Shown here: positions 28,240 to 35,932 of the stretch, piece by piece
Numbering within the stretch: the stretch's first letter is position 1
Layout of the letters: each line of letters starts with the position of its first letter
NCBI GenBank assembly: GCA_945869965.1
Contig: CAMBRC010000020.1
Coordinates: 1-52,582, forward strand
Direction: 5' to 3'
DNA: 52,582 nucleotides
Origin: Asaia bogorensis
GTDB lineage: Bacteria; Pseudomonadota; Alphaproteobacteria; Acetobacterales; Acetobacteraceae
Program-made: the position numbers and the translations under genes
Notes under the pieces: model-generated
Database searches by the model: none
What the model saw: the letters and a program-made list of their open reading frames with translations, nothing else
What the model was told of the DNA's origin: nothing

Positions 28240-28306
28240 GTGAAGGCGAGGGCTCTGCCCTCGACCCGCTGGGGCCTGAGGCCCCAGACCCCCATTCGTT
28301 AAGCGC
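28240..28306. repeat. Left part of a G+C-rich repeat split by the Mu-like element
   Basis: Reverse orientation of the 9158-9333 family: GAGGGCTCTGCCCTC hairpin, CCCGCTGGGGCC hairpin, then CCCCATTCGTTAAGCGC. The repeat breaks off at 28306 and resumes at 35800. Joining the two parts gives a normal copy with a 27-base-arm palindrome. Confidence 0.85.
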
Positions 28307-28356
28307 TGGGGTCCGAAAAATTATTCTGCCACGAGTTTGAGAATTAACCTGCCACG
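28307..28356 (+). promoter_or_regulatory. Left end with two transposase-binding-site-like repeats
   Basis: Two direct copies of a 20-base pattern lie about 23 bases apart: GAAAAATTATTCTGCCACG (28315-28333) and GAGAATTAACCTGCCACG (28339-28356). Each end of Mu-family elements carries several MuA-binding sites of this length. The right end carries matching sites in reverse orientation. Confidence 0.65.
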
Positions 28357-28414
28357 CAGCGTGCTAACGGTTTGAATTTAGATGGAATTTTGGATTTCTG
28401 GCGGTTCCGGTATT

Positions 28415-28580
28415 GGCGAACCGATTGCGGAACCTGTTGCGGCGCTGGCTCGCGCTAACCCGTTGATATTTTGAGCGGTGGCTACCGCTCATTCGCGTCT
28501 CAGATGCCCGAAAGATGCCTCTGAGACGCGATTGACGAACCGATTGGCGAACCAACTAGCGAGCCGGCTGGCGAGCCCTA
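28415..28580 (+). repeat. Direct and inverted repeats in the element's left noncoding region
   Basis: The 338 bases between the left end and the repressor stop hold no gene. They contain a CGAACCGATTG motif at 28417-28427 and 28536-28546, followed by variant units (GCGAACC, GCGAGCC, GCGAGCC) at 10-12-base spacing to 28580; a perfect seven-base hairpin GAGCGGT/ACCGCTC (28473-28490); and a perfect eleven-base inverted repeat CGCGTCTCAGA/TCTGAGACGCG (28494-28530). Transposase or repressor binding is possible. Confidence 0.6.
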
Positions 28581-28586
28581 GAAAGG

Positions 28587-28621
28587 AAAGGCCCCGCCGC
28601 ATCTGATGCGGCGGAGCCTTT
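28587..28621 (-). terminator. Intrinsic terminator of the repressor gene
   Basis: A long hairpin, AAAGGCNCCGCCGCATC against GATGCGGCGGNGCCTTT with one internal mismatch, followed on the minus strand by TTTCCTTTC. It is placed just after the repressor stop. Confidence 0.75.
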
Positions 28622-28644
28622 GTCGTCGCAGTGGATGTGAGAGG

Positions 28645-29172
28645 CTACTCGGCCGGGAAGCGCCCCGCTGAGTCAACCTCGGCTGCGGCTTCGGCGTGCC
28701 ACTCAGCCGGCGTGCCGGCGCCGGACAACTTCAGTTGCTGGTACCGCGCGACATACGCAACCATAAAGTCGCGAATGAGATGCGCCTTGATGTGAGGCAG
28801 CGCCGGATGCCCCTGCTGCCTCTCCATTTCATCCGCCCGCTTAACCGCGCAGGTCAGCGCCCGCATATCGACGGTCCCCGCCTTGTGCACCGCATCGCGA
28901 TTCGAGAACTCCCCGCGAAGCGCGGCCTCACCGAAGAGAACCGCGCCCATGCTTGAACCGGCAATGTGGGGGAACGTCCGTTCAATCTCCCACAACAGGG
29001 AAAGAGAGGGTTCCGCCTTGCCACTCTCGATGTTGGAGACATGCCCCCTGGAGACACCGAGCGCATCGGCGAAGTCCACCTGAGAGAGACCGGACGCCTC
29101 GCGGAGCAAGCGCAGGCGGTTGGCGACCTCGGCAGCAAGGCCGCCCTCCGACGCGCCGTTGAATTTAATCAT
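28645..29172 (-). CDS. XRE/HTH repressor of the Mu-like element
   Basis: A 175-residue transcription regulator. Residues 15-70 form a Cro/CI helix-turn-helix: VANRLRLLREASGLSQVDFA, then ALGVSRGHVSNIESGKAEPS. The rest (about 80-175) is helical and may serve dimerisation or sensing; no peptidase (LexA-like) motif is seen. It reads away from the transposase gene with a 51-base divergent gap that must hold both promoters, the position of the Mu c repressor. ATG 29172 follows AGGATAG. It should keep the transposition genes silent in the lysogenic state. Confidence 0.82.
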   Translation of the reverse strand: MIKFNGASEGGLAAEVANRLRLLREASGLSQVDFADALGVSRGHVSNIESGKAEPSLSLLWEIERTFPHIAGSSMGAVLFGEAALRGEFSNRDAVHKAGTVDMRALTCAVKRADEMERQQGHPALPHIKAHLIRDFMVAYVARYQQLKLSGAGTPAEWHAEAAAEVDSAGRFPAE

Positions 29173-29223
29173 TTTGCTATCCTGTATGTTGACCAGTGCC
29201 CACCATAATGCCAGATTGCCGAA

Positions 29224-31326
29224 ATGCCTTCAAGTCCCACCATCGGCAAATTGCGAGATTCGGCATTGGCCCATGCACCTTGGTGCGCCGCCGAAGCCTT
29301 TGCATGTGCCGCTGGAATTTCACTCCGCGCTGCACAGAAAGCTCTTGCACGAGCGTTCAACGGCGCCCCATGGAATGGGCATCTCCTGATCGTTCGGGCT
29401 GTGCCCACGCGTGGTGGTGCCTCCGGCGCCCGCTTCGAGGTAGCTATTGCATCCCTGCCGTCCGAAGTTGCTGCCAGCATCACGGCCGATCCGGAGCAAG
29501 AACCGCGCAGCCGCGTCGCCCTCGGCACCGACTGGCGCCTGTCGCTGGTGCGGCGCATCGTCCAGGCTGGACAACCCGGAAGCGATGAACGCGCGGCGGA
29601 GCTGCGCGACGTGGCGCAGTCTGAGTTCTGCCGGAGCGGCAAGCGGGCGGGTGCGCCGATCGCGGAGCGCACGTTGCGGGCCTGGGTGGCGACGTATGAG
29701 CGGGCGGGCGCCGTGCCGCTGATCCGCCGCACGCCGCGTGCTGATCGGGGCCGCTCCCGCGTCATCGCGTGGCGGGAGTGGGACAAGGCCCTGTCTGATG
29801 CAGGCATTTCCGAGGCGCACCAGCGCGAGATTGCGGCGAGCCTTGACGCCGACGTGCGCGGCCTGTGGGCCAATGGCGAGACAAGCGCAGCAAACATCCG
29901 GTTCAGTATGACAGTCCGGTGCCGCGCCCTGTTGGACAGTGCCCGCCTCGTGCTCCCAGAGGCGGAAATGGCGCGGCTGTGCCTGATGCCACTGCACTAC
30001 GCCGGAGAGAAGTCGCGACGCCGAGCGCGCATCGCGCACATCAAGCGAACCGACGCCGCGCGTTGGGCATCGCATCATGTGCAGCGCGTGCGCCGTCATC
30101 GGAACGACCTGCGGCCGATGGACCTTGTTGCGGTGGATGTACGACACTCGGATATACTGTATGAGCGGCCGGATGGGAGCCCTGCAACGGCCAAGATCGT
30201 TGCTTTTCAGGACCTTGCGACCAATAGAGTTTTTGCCCGTCCTTTCCTGTTGCCGAAGGGCGAAAGTATCCGCCGCGAGCATGTCTTGTCCGCGATGCGC
30301 GATCTTGCCGCCGATCCTTCATGGGGATTATGGCGCGGCCTGTATCTCGACAACGGCAGCGAGTTCAAGATTGGCCTTGCAGAGAGCGATCTTGCCCCCC
30401 TTGTGGACTTGGTCCGCAGGGTTCATGGCGACGATGCGGCAGCCGGCGTGCTCAACGTCAAGTATGGCGATGTCACCAGCCGCCCTTACAACCCGCAGTC
30501 CAAGGTGATCGAAGGCACGTTCTCCACTTTCACCCGTTCGATCGAGCCGGTTTATCAGGGTTTCATCGGCGGCGAACGCATGGCGAAGAAAACGCATAAC
30601 CAAGGGCGCGCGCCAGTTCCACTGCGGGGAGAAGAAGAGGAAATCCTGGCGAAGTTTGCCGATATGTTTGCATTCTACAATGCAAAACCTCAACAGAAGG
30701 GGCATTGCAAAGGGCTGTCTCCCAACGAGAAATTTGCCGAATGTGTCAACAATACTTCCCGGCCATGGGGCGCGCTCGTGCTTGATCCGGCGCAGTTCGC
30801 TTTCATCTTCGGCGGCACACCGATTTGGCGCACAGTGCAGCCGGGTGGCGAGCTAAACATCAACAACCGGGTGATGACAGCCCCCGAACTTGTGCCCATG
30901 GTCGGCGAGAAAGTCCGCGTGCGGCTGCCCATTCTTGATGCATCGTGCGCGATAGTGCTGAATGACAAGAACGATCGCTGGATTGTAGCGCGGGAGATCG
31001 TCGCGATTGGCATGCGCGACGTGGCCGGCGTGCGCAAACACGACAGCATGCGGCGGGCGGCTGCGCAGGCTGCCGCAGCCACAGCGCACGGTGCGACCAA
31101 GATCGACCCAGCTTCCGCGCGACATACCGCCGTGACGGCACTGCCGCCGCCAGTGGTGCCGGCGCCCATCGCAAGGGCTTCGGTCAATCCAGTGTTTCAC
31201 GAGGCTGCCAAGGCCGGCGGCACCGTCGCGCCAATGCCACAGCGCGCGGCCGAAAAGCAGCGCCGCAACGATGAAGTGGCGGAAAGCCGCCGCACCATCG
31301 TGGAGGCACTGCGTCGTGCAGGATGA
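29224..31326 (+). CDS. MuA-type DDE transposase
   Basis: A 700-residue transposase of the phage Mu A family. N-terminal residues 20-75 contain a DNA-binding region (WCAAEAFACAAGISLRAAQK). The catalytic triad is D305 in LVAVDVRHSD, D376 in LYLDNGSEFK and E430 in KVIEGTFSTF, at the family's spacing. A Mu-type C-terminal barrel (about 540-610) and a basic, Ala-rich tail that can contact MuB and host ClpX follow. It cuts and joins the element's ends. The start at ATG 29224 has a poor ribosome site; no better start is seen. It heads the plus-strand early operon. Confidence 0.92.
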   Translation: MPSSPTIGKLRDSALAHAPWCAAEAFACAAGISLRAAQKALARAFNGAPWNGHLLIVRAVPTRGGASGARFEVAIASLPSEVAASITADPEQEPRSRVALGTDWRLSLVRRIVQAGQPGSDERAAELRDVAQSEFCRSGKRAGAPIAERTLRAWVATYERAGAVPLIRRTPRADRGRSRVIAWREWDKALSDAGISEAHQREIAASLDADVRGLWANGETSAANIRFSMTVRCRALLDSARLVLPEAEMARLCLMPLHYAGEKSRRRARIAHIKRTDAARWASHHVQRVRRHRNDLRPMDLVAVDVRHSDILYERPDGSPATAKIVAFQDLATNRVFARPFLLPKGESIRREHVLSAMRDLAADPSWGLWRGLYLDNGSEFKIGLAESDLAPLVDLVRRVHGDDAAAGVLNVKYGDVTSRPYNPQSKVIEGTFSTFTRSIEPVYQGFIGGERMAKKTHNQGRAPVPLRGEEEEILAKFADMFAFYNAKPQQKGHCKGLSPNEKFAECVNNTSRPWGALVLDPAQFAFIFGGTPIWRTVQPGGELNINNRVMTAPELVPMVGEKVRVRLPILDASCAIVLNDKNDRWIVAREIVAIGMRDVAGVRKHDSMRRAAAQAAAATAHGATKIDPASARHTAVTALPPPVVPAPIARASVNPVFHEAAKAGGTVAPMPQRAAEKQRRNDEVAESRRTIVEALRRAG

Positions 31327-31422
31327 CCGCCAAACGAAATCGGACGGGAGGGCGTTGACGCGCCCTCCCGCCCTTCGCAGCCGGGGGCGTTTCCCCGGCA
31401 TCGATCAAGGGACATCACCCCA

Positions 31423-32223
31423 ATGACCGACACTTCGCACAATACTGCCACTTCAGCGGGCAACAATGCCCGCGTTCCTGCCGATATATGGCCGATCCGC
31501 AGCGCGGTGGCGATCGCCGAGGGCGTGGAAATCTGCCGCAAGACGGGGCAGATGGGCCTAATCACCGGCCCGAGCGGCACCGGCAAGACGACTGCGGCAA
31601 GCGCCACCGTGGCCGCGCTGGCGGGCGCCGATATCGAAGCCCACTACGTGATGATGACTCGCGCACATGATGGGTTGCTTCCCGGCCTTCTGCGCATCGC
31701 CAACGCGATCGGCGCCCATGCGCAACCGCACCTGGGTTGCGCTGGCGTCTATGACGATCTCGTCAACCACATGCTCTCGTCGTGGCAGCGCGGCGGCGTG
31801 CTTGTGCTGGACGAGGCGCAGTTCATGTCCGAAGCCCTGATTGATGGGCTGCGAAACATTGCCGACGACTTGCGCGGCAAAAACCGGGCGCGCGGCATCG
31901 TCATGGTGGGCACGCCCGAACTTGCGGCCAAGATCAATGGTAAGGTGGGGGGGCGATCCAAGCACTTCGCCCCGCTGCGCGGACGCCTCTACATGGCGGA
32001 TATCGAGGACCTTTCGAACGAGGACTTCGAGACAATCGCAGCGCACTATGAACTTCCCGGCAAGCAGGCTCTGGAACTGTTGGCACGCGTTGGTTCCGGG
32101 CGCGGAGGGCTGCACAACGTCGCACGCGTGCTCCCGATGGCGGAACGCATTGCGGGACTGGGCAATCCCTTGTCGCTGGTCGGCCTTCGTGTGGCCGTGC
32201 AGGGCCAGGGGGTGGCGTCGTGA
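31423..32223 (+). CDS. MuB-type AAA+ ATPase, target-DNA activator
   Basis: A 266-residue ATPase. Walker A is G49-P-S-G-T-G-K-T, Walker B is GVLVLD130-E131-A-Q, and sensor motif VMVGTPE follows near 165. Family members bind target DNA as ATP-driven filaments and deliver it to the transposase. A short disordered N-terminus precedes the ATPase domain, as in Mu B. It follows MuA after 96 bases, and its stop overlaps the next gene's GTG. Confidence 0.9.
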   Translation: MTDTSHNTATSAGNNARVPADIWPIRSAVAIAEGVEICRKTGQMGLITGPSGTGKTTAASATVAALAGADIEAHYVMMTRAHDGLLPGLLRIANAIGAHAQPHLGCAGVYDDLVNHMLSSWQRGGVLVLDEAQFMSEALIDGLRNIADDLRGKNRARGIVMVGTPELAAKINGKVGGRSKHFAPLRGRLYMADIEDLSNEDFETIAAHYELPGKQALELLARVGSGRGGLHNVARVLPMAERIAGLGNPLSLVGLRVAVQGQGVAS

Positions 32224-32474
32224 ACGCCGCCAGCCCTGTCACCCCGTTGCCGGTTGACGTGCTCGCGTGGGATGCCGCGCGGCACGCCGCGTCTATGGCG
32301 GCGCTGAACCTGGTTCACCTTCTGGACGTGGCGGAACAGGTTGTCATTGACGCGCCATCCGGGCTGCCACCCGAGGCGCTTGCCATGGTGGGCCGGCTCG
32401 GCGCGTTGATCGCTGCGCAGAAGGTGTTCGCTGCACAGGTTGGGGAGTGGTTCGATGCCTCGCCGGAAACCTGA
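32220..32474 (+). CDS. Small helical protein of the Mu-like early operon
   Basis: An 84-residue protein with no recognised family. It has two amphipathic helices (LAWDAARHAASMAALNLVHL and the region AQVGEWFDA). GTG 32220 overlaps the MuB stop (GTGA) and the 3' end overlaps gemA by 20 bases, so it is a tightly packed operon member. It could be a host-takeover or accessory protein; nothing more can be said. Confidence 0.65.
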   Translation: MNAASPVTPLPVDVLAWDAARHAASMAALNLVHLLDVAEQVVIDAPSGLPPEALAMVGRLGALIAAQKVFAAQVGEWFDASPET

Positions 32475-32907
32475 GGGCATAGCCCCGAACAAGGTGGCGT
32501 TGGTGCATGTTGCCCGGCGCCGGCTAGGACTTGATGAAGCCGACTATCGGGCCATTCTGCTGCGGGTTGCTGGCGTCGATAGCGCCACGCGGCTGGATGA
32601 TGATGGCTTCCGGCAACTGATGGACGTGTTCGCCGCAATGGGTTTCCAGAGTGACAGCGCGGCCCGCAACTTCGGCCGGCGCCCCGGCATGGCCGGTTCC
32701 GGCCATGTCGCAGCAATCCGCCGCCTGTGGCAGGAATACACCCATGGCGAGGGCACGGATGCCACGCTGGGCAAATGGCTGGAACGGACGTGGGGCGTTT
32801 CCGCCTTGCGGTTCGTGACGGCCGAACAGGCGCCGAAGGTGGTGGCCGTGCTCAAAGGCATGGTCGCACGCCGGCAGGCACCGCAGGGCATGCATGCCAC
32901 AGCCTGA
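32455..32907 (+). CDS. gemA: GemA/gp16-like regulatory protein
   Basis: A 150-residue protein of the DUF1018/GemA family of Mu-like phages. Family blocks are ALVHVARRRLGLDEADYRAI, then DSATRLDDDGFRQLMDVFAA, and a C-terminal LWQEYTHGEGTDATLGKWLE segment. In Mu, gemA modulates host gene expression and DNA gyrase. ATG 32455 follows GGGGAGTGG. It overlaps both neighbours. Confidence 0.82.
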   Translation: MPRRKPEGIAPNKVALVHVARRRLGLDEADYRAILLRVAGVDSATRLDDDGFRQLMDVFAAMGFQSDSAARNFGRRPGMAGSGHVAAIRRLWQEYTHGEGTDATLGKWLERTWGVSALRFVTAEQAPKVVAVLKGMVARRQAPQGMHATA

Positions 32908-33259
32908 CGCCATCCCCCAGGAGGTCGCGGCTTTCATTGAAGGGCTGCCGCCCTCCTGGGGCTACTCGCAGCTTGCCGACGCCTGTCGCGCCCGCTTCGG
33001 CGCGGCAGGCACCCCGGATGCCGATGCCATCCGGACCTGGTGGTTGTCGCGCGCCGCCGCGCACGCGCTACGCAACCGCCTCCAACGGGACGCAGAAGTT
33101 GCCGGCATGATCCGCGACCTTGCCGGGCGCGTCCACGTCGCGGCGATCATGACCGAGCTGCGCCGGCAGTTTCCGGTGCATCGTGTCCCCCGCCGCTCCA
33201 CCCTGTATCGCCACGTGTCGGTGCTTCTACGTGCGACGAACCAGAATCAGCGATCTTGA
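32894..33259 (+). CDS. Small Mu-like early protein, possible DNA-binding
   Basis: A 121-residue protein of unrecognised family, overlapping gemA by 14 bases. The central region (about 65-110) is helical and basic: GMIRDLAGRVHVAAIMTELR, then RVPRRSTLYRHVSVLL, which resembles a helix-turn-helix followed by a basic tail. It may be a transcription factor of the early-to-middle switch. A 157-base gap then precedes mor. Confidence 0.6.
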   Translation: MPQPDAIPQEVAAFIEGLPPSWGYSQLADACRARFGAAGTPDADAIRTWWLSRAAAHALRNRLQRDAEVAGMIRDLAGRVHVAAIMTELRRQFPVHRVPRRSTLYRHVSVLLRATNQNQRS

Positions 33260-33372
33260 CCGCGCATCGCCCCCTCTGGCGATAGGATGCATCGTGCGTC
33301 GTTCATCCTGCCATGGTTGGGGCTGACGAGGTTTCGTGAGTGGAGCACGGTTCCGGCGTCGCGCACGGTCAC

Positions 33373-33386
33373 CCCTCAACTGAGGG
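33373..33386. promoter_or_regulatory. Inverted repeat upstream of mor
   Basis: CCCTCA-AC-TGAGGG, perfect six-base arms, 31 bases before the mor start. A regulator-binding site or short hairpin in the leader is possible. Confidence 0.4.
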
Positions 33387-33416
33387 CGTGGCCGTTGCAG
33401 CGCCCCCATCGGCACA

Positions 33417-33794
33417 ATGGGGTGCATGGAGACGCCTCCACCGCCCGTCGAACTTGCGCCCATCGCCAACCTGATTGGAACGGCCGCGACCCTGCGGCTG
33501 ATCGAATTGCATGGCGGTTGCAGGGTCTACGTGCCCCGCAAACCGACCGAGCGATCCCGCTTTTCCCGCGAGCTTGGACCCGAAGCGGCCCGCGCTTTGG
33601 GGGCGGCAATGGGCGGTGACTGCCTCCAAGTTCCCCTCGCGCATGCTTGGCTGGTGAAGGTCTACACCCTGCGCCGCGAAAGCGCCGCGCAGATCGCCCG
33701 GCGGCTGAAAATGACGGAAAACACCGTCTATGTCCTGCGGCGTGCCATGCGCCTTACCTCGGGCGCAAACTCCGCAGCGGGCATAGCGTCGTGA
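33417..33794 (+). CDS. mor: Mor/C-type middle transcription activator
   Basis: A 125-residue protein of the Mor family of Mu-like phages. Family blocks are LAPIANLIGTAATLRLIELH, then GGCRVYVPRKP, and a C-terminal helix-turn-helix RRESAAQIARRLKMTENTVY. Mor activates the middle promoter and thereby the late genes. ATG 33417 or 33426 are both possible. Its stop overlaps the protease GTG by four bases; in Mu, lysis and packaging genes would come between, so the junction is unusual. Confidence 0.85.
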   Translation: MGCMETPPPPVELAPIANLIGTAATLRLIELHGGCRVYVPRKPTERSRFSRELGPEAARALGAAMGGDCLQVPLAHAWLVKVYTLRRESAAQIARRLKMTENTVYVLRRAMRLTSGANSAAGIAS

Positions 33795-34750
33795 CGCCGC
33801 AGCGGGAGACCCGCCAAGGCCCTCCTATGCCCCTGGGGACGGCACAGGAAGGCGCCAGCGGCAATGTGCCGGCATGGGTCCATCTACTGCCCTCCGGCGC
33901 GTTCAATGGGCGTGACGGGCGCGCCTTCGTGGTGGAACAGCCCGACCGCATCATTGCCGCATCGCTGCGCCAGGCGCCTGGCGGAAACTTGCCGCTCGAT
34001 TATGACCACGCCATTGACCGGACGGCCGCGAACGCGGGCGAAGCACCTGCGGCCGGCTGGATCGTCGCCCTTGAGGCGCGCGCCGATGGCATCTGGGGCC
34101 AGGTCGAATGGACCCCTCGCGCCCGCGATCGCATCGCCGCGCGGGAATACCGCTTCATCTCCCCCGTGATCGTCCACGGGCCGGATCGCAAGGTGGTGGC
34201 GCTGCTGCGCGCGGCCCTCACCAACAACCCGAACCTTTCGCAACTGACCGCCCTCAACTCCGCAGGCACCCCCATGGACCTTGAAGCCCTTCTGACTGCA
34301 CTCCGCGAACTGCTGGCCCTCCCGGTTGACGCCGAGGCGGAAGCCGTGGTCGCGGCAGTGCGCGAGCTGGCCACGGCGAAGAACACGCCGGACCCCGCGC
34401 GCTTCGTGCCAATCGGACTGTTCCAACGCGCTGTGGCCGACGCCAACAAGGCCAATCTCGGCCTGTCGCAGAATGCCGCCGAACAGGCCGTTGAGGGCGC
34501 GATCCGCGATCGGCGGCTGATGCCATGGATGCGGGAATGGGGCGTGTCGCTGTGCATGGCCAATGCCAATGCCTTTGGCGGCTTCGTGAAGGGCGTTGGT
34601 CCTTCGATCAACACCTTCCTCGGCTCGCTCGCGGCCCCGGCCGTGCCGGGAAAGCGATGGGACGAACCCGACAAACGGCCCGGTCCGGTGGATGAAGTGG
34701 CCAAGAACCTCGGCCTGAGCGCCGCAGACATCGCGAAATACGGAGCATAG
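33791..34750 (+). CDS. Mu gpI-like prohead protease/scaffold
   Basis: A 319-residue head-maturation protease. Residues 25-140 form the Mu I domain: WVHLLPSGAFNGRDGRAFVV, LPLDYDHAIDR, APAAGWIVALEA, EYRFISPVIV and ALTNNPNLSQL. The DYDH and following motifs contain the likely catalytic residues. The C-terminal 170 residues probably form the scaffold. GTG 33791 overlaps the mor stop (GTGA); ATG 33827 behind AAGG is an alternative. It would cut the scaffold during capsid assembly. Confidence 0.85.
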   Translation: MTPQRETRQGPPMPLGTAQEGASGNVPAWVHLLPSGAFNGRDGRAFVVEQPDRIIAASLRQAPGGNLPLDYDHAIDRTAANAGEAPAAGWIVALEARADGIWGQVEWTPRARDRIAAREYRFISPVIVHGPDRKVVALLRAALTNNPNLSQLTALNSAGTPMDLEALLTALRELLALPVDAEAEAVVAAVRELATAKNTPDPARFVPIGLFQRAVADANKANLGLSQNAAEQAVEGAIRDRRLMPWMREWGVSLCMANANAFGGFVKGVGPSINTFLGSLAAPAVPGKRWDEPDKRPGPVDEVAKNLGLSAADIAKYGA

Positions 34751-34754
34751 ACCG

Positions 34755-35651
34755 ATGACGCCGAACGCCGAAAACCTCACCAGCCTGTTCACGGGCTACA
34801 ACGCCACCTTCAACAAGGCGATGACTGCCACGCCGAGCTTCCACAAGAAGCTTGCCATGGTGGTGCCCAGCACCACGCGCGAGAACCAATACGGCTGGCT
34901 CAGTGCCATGCCCGCGCTGCGCGAATGGGTCGGCGACCGCATCATTCACCAGCTTTCCATCGAAGGTTTTGTTCTCCGCAACAAGGAGTTCGAGGCCACC
35001 GTTTCGGTCCGACGCACGGACATCGAAGATGACCAGTATGGCGTCTATGCCCCCATGTTCGAGAAGATGGGCCGCGACGCGGCGCAGCATCCCGACGAAC
35101 TGGTGTTGGGGGTGCTCAAGGATGGCTTCACCCGCACCTGCTACGATAACCAGTACTTCTTCGACACCGACCATCCTGTGGGCGGCATGGGTGGCGCGGC
35201 CCCGGTATCCGTGAGCAACAGCGGCGGCGGGTCTGGCACGCCATGGTTCCTGCTGGACTGCTCGCAACCCCTCAAGCCGATGGTGTTTCAGGAGCGGCTT
35301 CCGTATCGGCTGACCCCTCTGGACCGGGAGCAGGATGAGAACGTCTTTTCCCGAGGCGAATACATCTACGGCGTGCGCGCTCGGGGCAATGCCGGCTTCG
35401 GCCTGTGGCAGCTTGCCTATGGCAGCAAGCAGACGCTGGATGTTGCCGCCTACGCCACCGCGCGCGCGGCGATGATGGGGTTCAAGTCCGACAGCGGCAA
35501 GGTGCTCAACATCACGCCAACGCACCTGGTGGTACCGCCGTCGCTGGAAAGCGTGGCGCGCCAGATCGTGGTAGCGGACCGCGATGCGGGCGGCGCCGCC
35601 AATGTCTGGCACGGCAGCGCCGATTTGATCGTGACCGCGATGGTGCTCTGA
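34755..35651 (+). CDS. Mu gpT-like major capsid protein
   Basis: A 298-residue major head subunit of the Mu T family. It begins MTPNAENLTSLFTGYNATFN; the mid-region YGVYAPMFEKMGRDAAQHPD and C-terminal NITPTHLVVPPSLESVARQI are typical of gpT. Length is that of intact family members. It lies four bases after the protease stop. A terminator and 114 bases of non-coding DNA lead to the right end. No portal, connector or tail gene is in the element, so it could only assemble particles with help. Confidence 0.9.
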   Translation: MTPNAENLTSLFTGYNATFNKAMTATPSFHKKLAMVVPSTTRENQYGWLSAMPALREWVGDRIIHQLSIEGFVLRNKEFEATVSVRRTDIEDDQYGVYAPMFEKMGRDAAQHPDELVLGVLKDGFTRTCYDNQYFFDTDHPVGGMGGAAPVSVSNSGGGSGTPWFLLDCSQPLKPMVFQERLPYRLTPLDREQDENVFSRGEYIYGVRARGNAGFGLWQLAYGSKQTLDVAAYATARAAMMGFKSDSGKVLNITPTHLVVPPSLESVARQIVVADRDAGGAANVWHGSADLIVTAMVL

Positions 35652-35662
35652 GGCTGGCATCA

Positions 35663-35685
35663 GGGGCGCCTAAGGCGTCCCTTTT
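35663..35685 (+). terminator. Terminator after the capsid gene
   Basis: GGGGCGCC-TAA-GGCGTCCC, an eight-pair stem with one G-T pair, followed by CTTTTG. It ends the element's late transcript before the right end. Confidence 0.7.
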
Positions 35686-35748
35686 GCTTCGATTAGAGCC
35701 GACTTACAATGCGCTTCGAGGCCGGCGGCGCCATCCCGGCATATCCCG

Positions 35749-35799
35749 CATGGGCTCGCTTAATCCCGCATCCGTGGCCAGATAATTATTCAGACAGCA
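35749..35799 (-). promoter_or_regulatory. Right end with transposase-binding-site-like repeats
   Basis: Reading inward on the minus strand, GAATAATTATCTGGCCACG (R1) matches the left-end repeat at most positions, and a second weaker copy, GGATTAAGCGAGCCCATG (35749-35766), follows. The outermost bases are CA on the plus strand. Confidence 0.6.
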
Positions 35800-35932
35800 G
35801 CGCCTTCGGCCAAGGGGGGCATCGAGGCCTTTATCAAGGCCCCGATGCCCCCCTTGGCCGAAGGCGCTTCATGGTTGAGGTCCAGGGTCTCGGACCCTGG
35901 TGGGGTCCAGGGGCAAAGCCCTTGGCCTTGCC
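35800..35932. repeat. Right part of the split G+C-rich repeat
   Basis: Continuation of 28240-28306. It holds the long palindrome (27-base arms beginning GCGCCTTCGG, with the first bases shared with the left part), TCATGGTTGAGGTCC, a CCAGGGTC/GACCCTGG hairpin and a CCAGGGGC/GCCCTTGG hairpin. It leads to the ppiC stop. Confidence 0.85.

Follow-up and report, generated by a model that had tools for sequence, protein, structure and literature searches.

A 7.5-kb Mu-type element in Asaia bogorensis as a probable member of a lineage of capsid-encoding, transposable phage satellites

What is a Mu-like element that carries both ends, a set of transposition genes and the genes for a capsid shell, with little else of a phage? 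The question is raised by the window analyzed here, a 52,582-nucleotide stretch of Asaia bogorensis DNA (assembly GCA_945869965.1, contig CAMBRC010000020.1, positions 1 to 52,582), in which an element of 7,493 bp, bounded by TG...CA, occupies positions 28307-35799; the sequence fixes these coordinates exactly. This intact element probably belongs to an old lineage of phage satellites of the Mu type that encode their own capsid and rely on a helper. As a lineage, a new phage-satellite family based on Mu-type transposition has good support. Reliance on a helper, and the function proposed for a protein related to small terminases (TerS-type protein), would follow from the anatomy as read from the sequence. 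Loci and genomes are cited below by L and G numbers, the window's own assembly being G000.

An earlier, sequence-only reading of this DNA had described both ends, a target duplication, the repressor, MuA, MuB, GemA and Mor as intact-looking, and our analysis agrees with it. TG and CA stand at the two outermost positions with GCGC on both sides, both ends read TG inward, and AATTATTCTGCCACG-type repeats are found twice at the left and once, inverted, at the right. The genes run in the order repressor (minus strand), MuA, MuB, orf84, GemA, orf121, Mor, gpI and gpT (Table 1). All of these open reading frames (ORFs) are open and all except orf84 and orf121 match known families in Pfam or PHROG; orf84 found no family in either scan. 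MuA residues D305, D376 and E430, invariant in alignments A1 and A5, are read as the putative DDE triad. No site-specific integrase was matched among the nine ORFs scanned against the same two collections. Mor and gpI overlap by GTGA (33791-33794), as had been noticed. The terminator that had been assigned to gpT corresponds to an actual hairpin, but such sites are no more common than expected (4 found, against a mean of 6.2 in shuffles), and neither the terminator nor the promoter scan of the region exceeded its shuffles. The genes that the sequence-only reading named were borne out; it had passed over orf84, orf121 (the TerS-like gene) and a second type of satellite.

The head and tail genes were sought with the proteins of phages JBD25, Aussie and Mu. 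As a control of these queries, TerL, portal, gpF and gpG were found in 14 of 16 full-phage loci, the two loci without matches being too short (L071, 4.2 kb) or beginning at gpT (L106). With the same queries TerL, portal, gpF, gpG, sheath and lysozyme had no match in the window, L053, L058 or L109, in keeping with the proposal that only gpI and gpT remain of the morphogenesis set. The proteins of the three phages matched the window at the early genes, gpI and gpT only, apart from one weak match of Mu gp37 (E 0.001, 31% over 64 aa) that is located inside gpT. The gpT of the window is 50% identical to that of Pseudomonas phage JBD25.

The short layout is not unique to this site. A gpT query matched 36 of the 397 genomes of the bacterial family; twenty stretches from 17 of these and stretches from two more were read, the others being read as 3-4 kb loci or left out. 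Short layouts are present in G364 (L053), G079 (L054), G281 (L055), G218 (L056), G316 (L057, on the same contig as Acetobacter orleanensis L107) and G374 (L058, on plasmid pAACEN2 of Acetobacter aceti NBRC 14818). A MuA-pattern scan of species genomes gave 17 loci, several of them ended by a contig edge and so uninformative on length; short-looking elements were seen in a Roseomonas strain (L109), Rhodopseudomonas palustris JSC-3b (L118) and a Methylococcaceae assembly (L116). Altogether, six short elements of 6.9-9.8 kb are complete, with both ends located and a target duplication at each of six unrelated sites. Four have 4-bp duplications, namely GCGC in the window, CCGG in L053 (9,770 bp), TCAT in L058 (9,000 bp) and ACGC in L109 (8,177 bp); a blind search with 16 candidates placed the L109 end pair first. 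L058 interrupts a gene for an IS3-type transposase, and the reading frame of that gene is restored on removal of 4, not 5, duplicated bases. The duplication of phage Mu is 5 bp. A 5-bp duplication, AGCGC with the last A shared, would be possible for the window element taken alone, but L053, L058 and L109 allow only 4 bp, which fits all four elements of the window's clade with both ends located. A similar end motif is present in L053, L057, L058, L109 and L116; the ends of L118, L119, L121, L032 and L054 were not located with confidence.

The relatives differ in what accompanies the shell genes. In L053 a tape-measure gene separates Mor from gpI, and gpT is followed by a decoration-type gene. 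A gene of L101 matches the L053 tape measure, and L100 and L118 have tape-measure genes as well, L118 together with a different major capsid family. In L057 and L058, gpI is reduced to roughly its protease portion. L056 has, 3' of gpT, a separate gene with a match to the C-terminal half of the gpI family (8.9e-5); L058 has a weaker match of this kind (0.049).

The other two complete elements, L055 (4475-11332, duplication GCGGT) and L056 (44-7629, duplication CTGAT), have 5-bp duplications and encode a TerS-type protein, Mor, gpI and gpT. Neither has a match to the MuA catalytic domain, and we refer to them as type II. Full-length Mu-like prophages are present in both genomes. The left end of L055 is identical at 65 of 70 positions to the left-end region of one prophage copy in G281 and at 52 of 72 to that of the other, and its right end at 50 of 71 to a full-length prophage of the same genome (scores 60, 29.5 and 28.5, against a shuffled maximum of 8.5). 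One of the two prophage copies has a TCGTG duplication; in the other, a TG with the expected ATGGA flank stands 39 bp outward of the matching end. The gpT of L055 is only 37% identical to the gpT of the G281 prophage with similar ends, and L055 is therefore not a simple deletion of that prophage. In G218, the ends of the full-length prophage resident beside L056 were not located. As a separate observation, a non-coding stretch of L055 (7805-7954) resembles, in inverted orientation, the gpG-gpI intergenic region of full-length prophages (L064, 8509-8622); the phage Mu record has a gyrase cut site annotated between G and I.

We examined descent with trees from which near-identical and short rows had been removed. 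The MuA tree holds 40 proteins, its bootstrap not fully settled, and leaves out L037, L123 (partial), the JBD25 MuA and four near-duplicates. The MuA proteins of the short elements form a clade of 16 rows (support 97/92), within which the 11 rows nearest the window have support of 99/99. The MuA proteins of full-length prophages from the same bacterial family lie elsewhere in the tree. That of the short element L054 is also outside the clade, at a place that a long branch makes uncertain. We found no full-length relative that shares these junctions, and the nearest full phages in the MuA tree are outside the clade. Against a phage collection, the window MuA matched one record (23% over 45% of its length) and the L109 MuA none. 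At the level of the order, MuA profiles reached E 1e-270 or better in 6 of 395 genomes, all in the window's family. At the level of the phylum, 4 of 393 genomes were found, the window's own and three of an outside group. The MuA profile led to two loci of G1053, both of which have TerL and portal; G945, of the same outside group, has a 19-kb stretch without a head-gene match, and the G1087 contig, at only 4.5 kb, says little.

The capsid genes have a different history. Monophyly of the satellite capsid genes was looked for in the gpT tree and not found: to place the nine short-element rows, three or more label changes are required on well-supported branches, and the window and L053 fall inside a full-phage group. 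Capsid descent was not used as proof of a lineage, since the short-element gpT is not monophyletic. The MuA clade and the scattered gpT together indicate that the transposition module is old and shared, with the capsid exchanged with phages; the scatter, and the place of the window and L053, would be expected if shells are swapped with helpers. The seven genes compared between the window and L053 all differ most often at third codon positions.

The TerS-type protein of the window is orf121, which itself has no Pfam or PHROG match. Its relatives in L100 and L101 exceed the cutoff of PF11985 (Mu gp27, small terminase) in the N-terminal region only, as does, for the same family, the TerS-type protein of L055, which was found by direct TerS similarity. 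An hhalign comparison of five orf121-type proteins (A2) with eleven small terminases aligned the second unit to the N-terminal region (P 6.7e-5, probability 64%). The AlphaFold2 model of orf121 has six helices (pLDDT 81), which may be read as two three-helix units; Foldseek returned no significant PDB match for this model. Similarity to orf121 was detected in L053, L056, L058, L099, L100, L101, L109, L110 and L118 (E 2e-31 to 0.017). The TerS-type protein of L197 is 47% identical to that of L118, and that of L054 is 63% identical to that of L058, though the L054 MuA is outside the short-element clade. In all, 13 of the 19 short loci that were read past GemA have a TerS-type protein, a count that leaves out L120, L124 and loci cut earlier. 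The orf121 query had no match in any full-length locus. We infer that the TerS-type protein acts as a packaging adaptor or blocker: most likely this helix-turn-helix (HTH) protein would mark satellite DNA for the helper's terminase, or else block the helper's own small terminase.

A course of events can be proposed from this anatomy. The element would insert, and presumably multiply, by MuA/MuB transposition under its own c-like repressor, the activity being predicted from the assigned families. Mor, as its position in the layout suggests, would switch on a minimal late operon, from which the element makes a protease/scaffold and shell of its own. A co-infecting or co-resident full-length Mu-like phage would supply the large terminase, portal, neck, tail and lysis functions; this borrowing is proposed because those genes are absent from the element and a type II element carries the ends of a resident prophage. 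We considered whether gpI and gpT could instead be decoy shell proteins that poison invading Mu-like phages, protecting the host cell and the element, with no travel in particles. The element encodes only shell proteins and G000 shows no helper, as such an interference element would have it, and the other assembly proteins of the relatives (tape measure, decoration-type) could also be decoys. Decoys, however, need no protease, scaffold and TerS-type DNA-binding protein, and the MuA clade is present in genomes or assemblies named Acetobacter, Rhodopseudomonas, Rhodocyclaceae and Methylococcaceae, which suggests horizontal travel. We regard interference as unlikely.

Several observations weigh against the satellite reading, and some of them speak for a prophage remnant, that is, a decaying Mu-like phage, once of full length, from which internal deletions have removed the middle and tail genes. 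The window's own assembly has a single gpT match, such that no helper of this type is visible there; portal and TerS searches of G000 were also empty, with queries that lacked a working control and are not relied on. The link of orf121 to TerS, drawn from sequence comparison, is of moderate strength, and a TerS-type protein went undetected in L057, L116, L119, L121, L032 and L185. L119 (Candidatus Desulfobacillus) is a MuA-GemA-Mor element without a gpI or gpT match. The L116 contig stops about 900 bases past gpT, and many relatives are ended by a contig edge. The ends of the type II elements were hand-picked from several candidates, the L055 pair being third of 37 in a blind list. The clade is rare: at the level of the class, MuA profiles found 1 of 385 genomes at E 1e-60, the window's own. 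The MuA of L053, the closest relative, is frameshifted. Two phages with TerL and portal (L167, L168) belong to the sister group of the MuA clade, together with two loci that showed no head gene (L166, L169), and L124, on an outer branch of the clade itself, has portal and head-morphogenesis genes; because of L124 and these full phages, the lineage may grade into phages. The frameshift and the phage-like rows fit a remnant, as does the fact that all recognized genes are of Mu-phage families. Decay by deletion does not readily account for a short plan at six unrelated sites, each with a duplication, for a core MuA clade of 11 rows without a full-length phage (though several contigs are cut), for capsid genes of several origins, for an orf121-type gene not found in full-length loci, or for the third-position excess between the window and L053. 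On the strength of the recurrence, the MuA tree and the ends, we rejected the remnant, which seems to us quite unlikely, and prefer the satellite, as the sequence-only reading had allowed. Highly improbable is a shell-forming transposon whose HK97-fold gpT makes a nanocompartment or tailless particle without a helper: a closed, matured HK97-type shell needs no more than gpI and gpT, but no packaging motor or portal is matched, the TerS-type protein and Mor point to phage packaging, and one type II element carries the ends of a full prophage.

A structured RNA, about 105 nt long, with strong covariation and a pseudoknot, occurs both in short elements and in full-length Mu-like phages. Copies are present in the short elements L055 (10921-11061), L054, L056 (two), L057, L058 and L100 (three), and in the full-length loci L039, L060, L063-L070, L072 and L105; in 12 of 12 full-length-locus copies the RNA lies between gpF and gpG. 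Eleven copies form five helices including the pseudoknot, with 96.2% of cells able to pair, against 37-49% with the partners slid. A covariance model without the pseudoknot gave 22 matches in 55 sources, one of them (L144) at chance level; across the 22 rows double changes occur at 17 pairs, against a shuffle mean of 8.6, and nine copies outside the model pair at 42 of their 43 pseudoknot cells. Viral contigs, scanned for the exact pattern, gave at least 120 matches. Among the 80 viral-contig loci listed, the nearest recognized upstream gene is gpF in 59 (none in 18) and the nearest downstream gene is gpG in 45 and gpI in 16. The RNA segment reached the gathering score of no family in Rfam 15, and the L055 copy, at E up to 10, had only two weak opposite-strand matches there. 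The covariance model did not find the RNA in the window (best 6.6 bits), L053 or L109, and it was not found in the full-length loci L059, L061 and L062. It could be a shared packaging or assembly RNA. Two further short layouts were found through it: L185, a viral contig of 7,766 bp with MuA-MuB-GemA-gpT-gpI-Mor-RNA-gpG, and L197, with Mor-tape measure-gpI-gpT-TerS-type and no recognized MuA in the locus. The tape-measure proteins of L053 and L197 have no convincing likeness.

From these data we lean towards an undescribed class of transposable satellites that retain a shell, a late activator and a TerS-type packaging adaptor and borrow everything else. Type I would have its own MuA and 4-bp duplications, type II would use the helper's MuA in trans through copied ends, and the RNA is present in some elements of both types.

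The element was compared with known systems. Like the capsid-forming phage-inducible chromosomal islands (cfPICIs), it has a major capsid gene of its own. The cfPICIs take tails from a helper, use an integrase and att sites, and own a fuller head-packaging set (TerL, portal, connectors). The window element differs in its MuA-type transposase and 4-bp duplication, with no integrase match, and in the lack of a TerL, portal or connector match. Staphylococcus aureus pathogenicity islands (SaPIs), other phage-inducible chromosomal islands (PICIs) and P4-like satellites are small, repressor-controlled and redirect packaging, some PICIs encoding a small terminase; they integrate site-specifically and remodel the helper's shell, having no major capsid protein. 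The window element is likewise small and has a repressor gene, but it encodes a major capsid protein and would move by transposition. With Mu and the B3/D3112-like phages it shares the c, A, B, gemA, mor, I and T genes and the TG...CA ends, whereas JBD25, Mu and Aussie are of 36.7-39.6 kb with head, tail and lysis genes, and the 4-bp duplications of its clade contrast with the 5 bp of Mu. Type II elements resemble the miniature inverted-repeat transposable elements (MITEs) moved by insertion-sequence transposases, described in passages of a 2024 review (PMC11389934), in having transposition ends without a transposase; they differ in their size (6.9-7.6 kb) and in encoding a TerS-type protein, Mor, protease and capsid, and the ends of L055 match a resident prophage. 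The families named in those passages are P4-like, PICI, cfPICI, PLE, PICMI, VEIMEs, tycheposons, soil families and plasmid pDolos, with three radiations in the cfPICI capsid trees, and the main text of the review uses neither "Mu-like" nor "phage Mu" (PMC11389934). An integrase-bearing satellite is described in another paper (PMC4936722). Searches of openly licensed papers brought up no Mu-type satellite, which is no proof of absence. Spread by transposition could let a satellite multiply in the chromosome with no replication origin, and such a satellite might escape integrase-based finders. If the satellite reading is true, the packing of a 7.5-kb genome by a phage machine built for about 38 kb, and the redirection of a terminase by a TerS-derived protein, become testable.

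Table 1. Positions of the features of the element and its flanks within the window.
Feature	Coordinates	Strand	Basis
Host dispersed repeat, insertion at repeat edge, outside element	28243-28306	+	at least 40 matches in G000 (window's own genome)
Target-site duplication GCGC, left copy	28303-28306		sequence
Left end: TG-N10, then two AATTATTCTGCCACG-type repeats (28319-28333, 28342-28356), probable MuA sites	28307-28356	+	end-motif comparison
HTH repressor (c-like)	28645-29172	-	PF01381 (HTH_3) 1.3e-14
MuA-type transposase, 700 aa	29224-31326	+	phrog_310 1.5e-42
MuB-type AAA ATPase	31423-32223	+	phrog_296 8.4e-22
orf84, small protein, no family assignment	32220-32474	+	relative in L053, tblastn 41% over 44 aa
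GemA	32440-32907	+	PF06252 1.8e-23
orf121, putatively two three-helix (HTH) units, the second probably related to the N-terminal domain of Mu-type small terminase (gp27, PF11985)	32894-33259	+	homologues, profile comparison, model
Mor-type late activator	33417-33794	+	phrog_836 5.7e-22
gpI, head maturation protease and scaffold region	33791-34750	+	PF10123 9.3e-55; phrog_328 over residues 22-317 of 319
gpT, major capsid protein	34755-35651	+	PF10124 4e-122
Terminator-like hairpin 3' of gpT	35662-35682	+	structure scan; not above chance frequency in region
Right end: CA at 35799, one inverted AATTATCTGGCCACG site	35773-35799	-	end-motif comparison
Target-site duplication GCGC, right copy	35800-35803		sequence

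The host repeat at the left edge is about 65 bp long, and a flank query holding it had 41-52 matches in each of the eight other genomes of the genus searched. In G274, of the same genus, the two flanks lie some tens of bases apart with no element between them (L148). In L155 a copy of the repeat directly joins sequence resembling the right flank; this is not an exact empty site, because the likeness to the flank begins only at 35851. A large hairpin with arms starting at 35799 is part of the flank, outside the element. An Rfam scan of the element gave nothing at the gathering score, the best matches being miRNA-like and to this outside hairpin. Two more loci are related through MuA. On Phaeobacter inhibens pDOK1-1-1 (L170, 11001-23479), a stretch related to the window MuA, in which the incomplete gene table lists no gene, is directly followed by contractile-tail genes (baseplate, sheath, tube, tape measure, VgrG-type). 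On a Mesorhizobium ciceri plasmid (L171, 10872-18696), a distant MuA relative and an AAA ATPase lie beside SbcCD-type genes, possibly as a non-phage Mu-type transposon.

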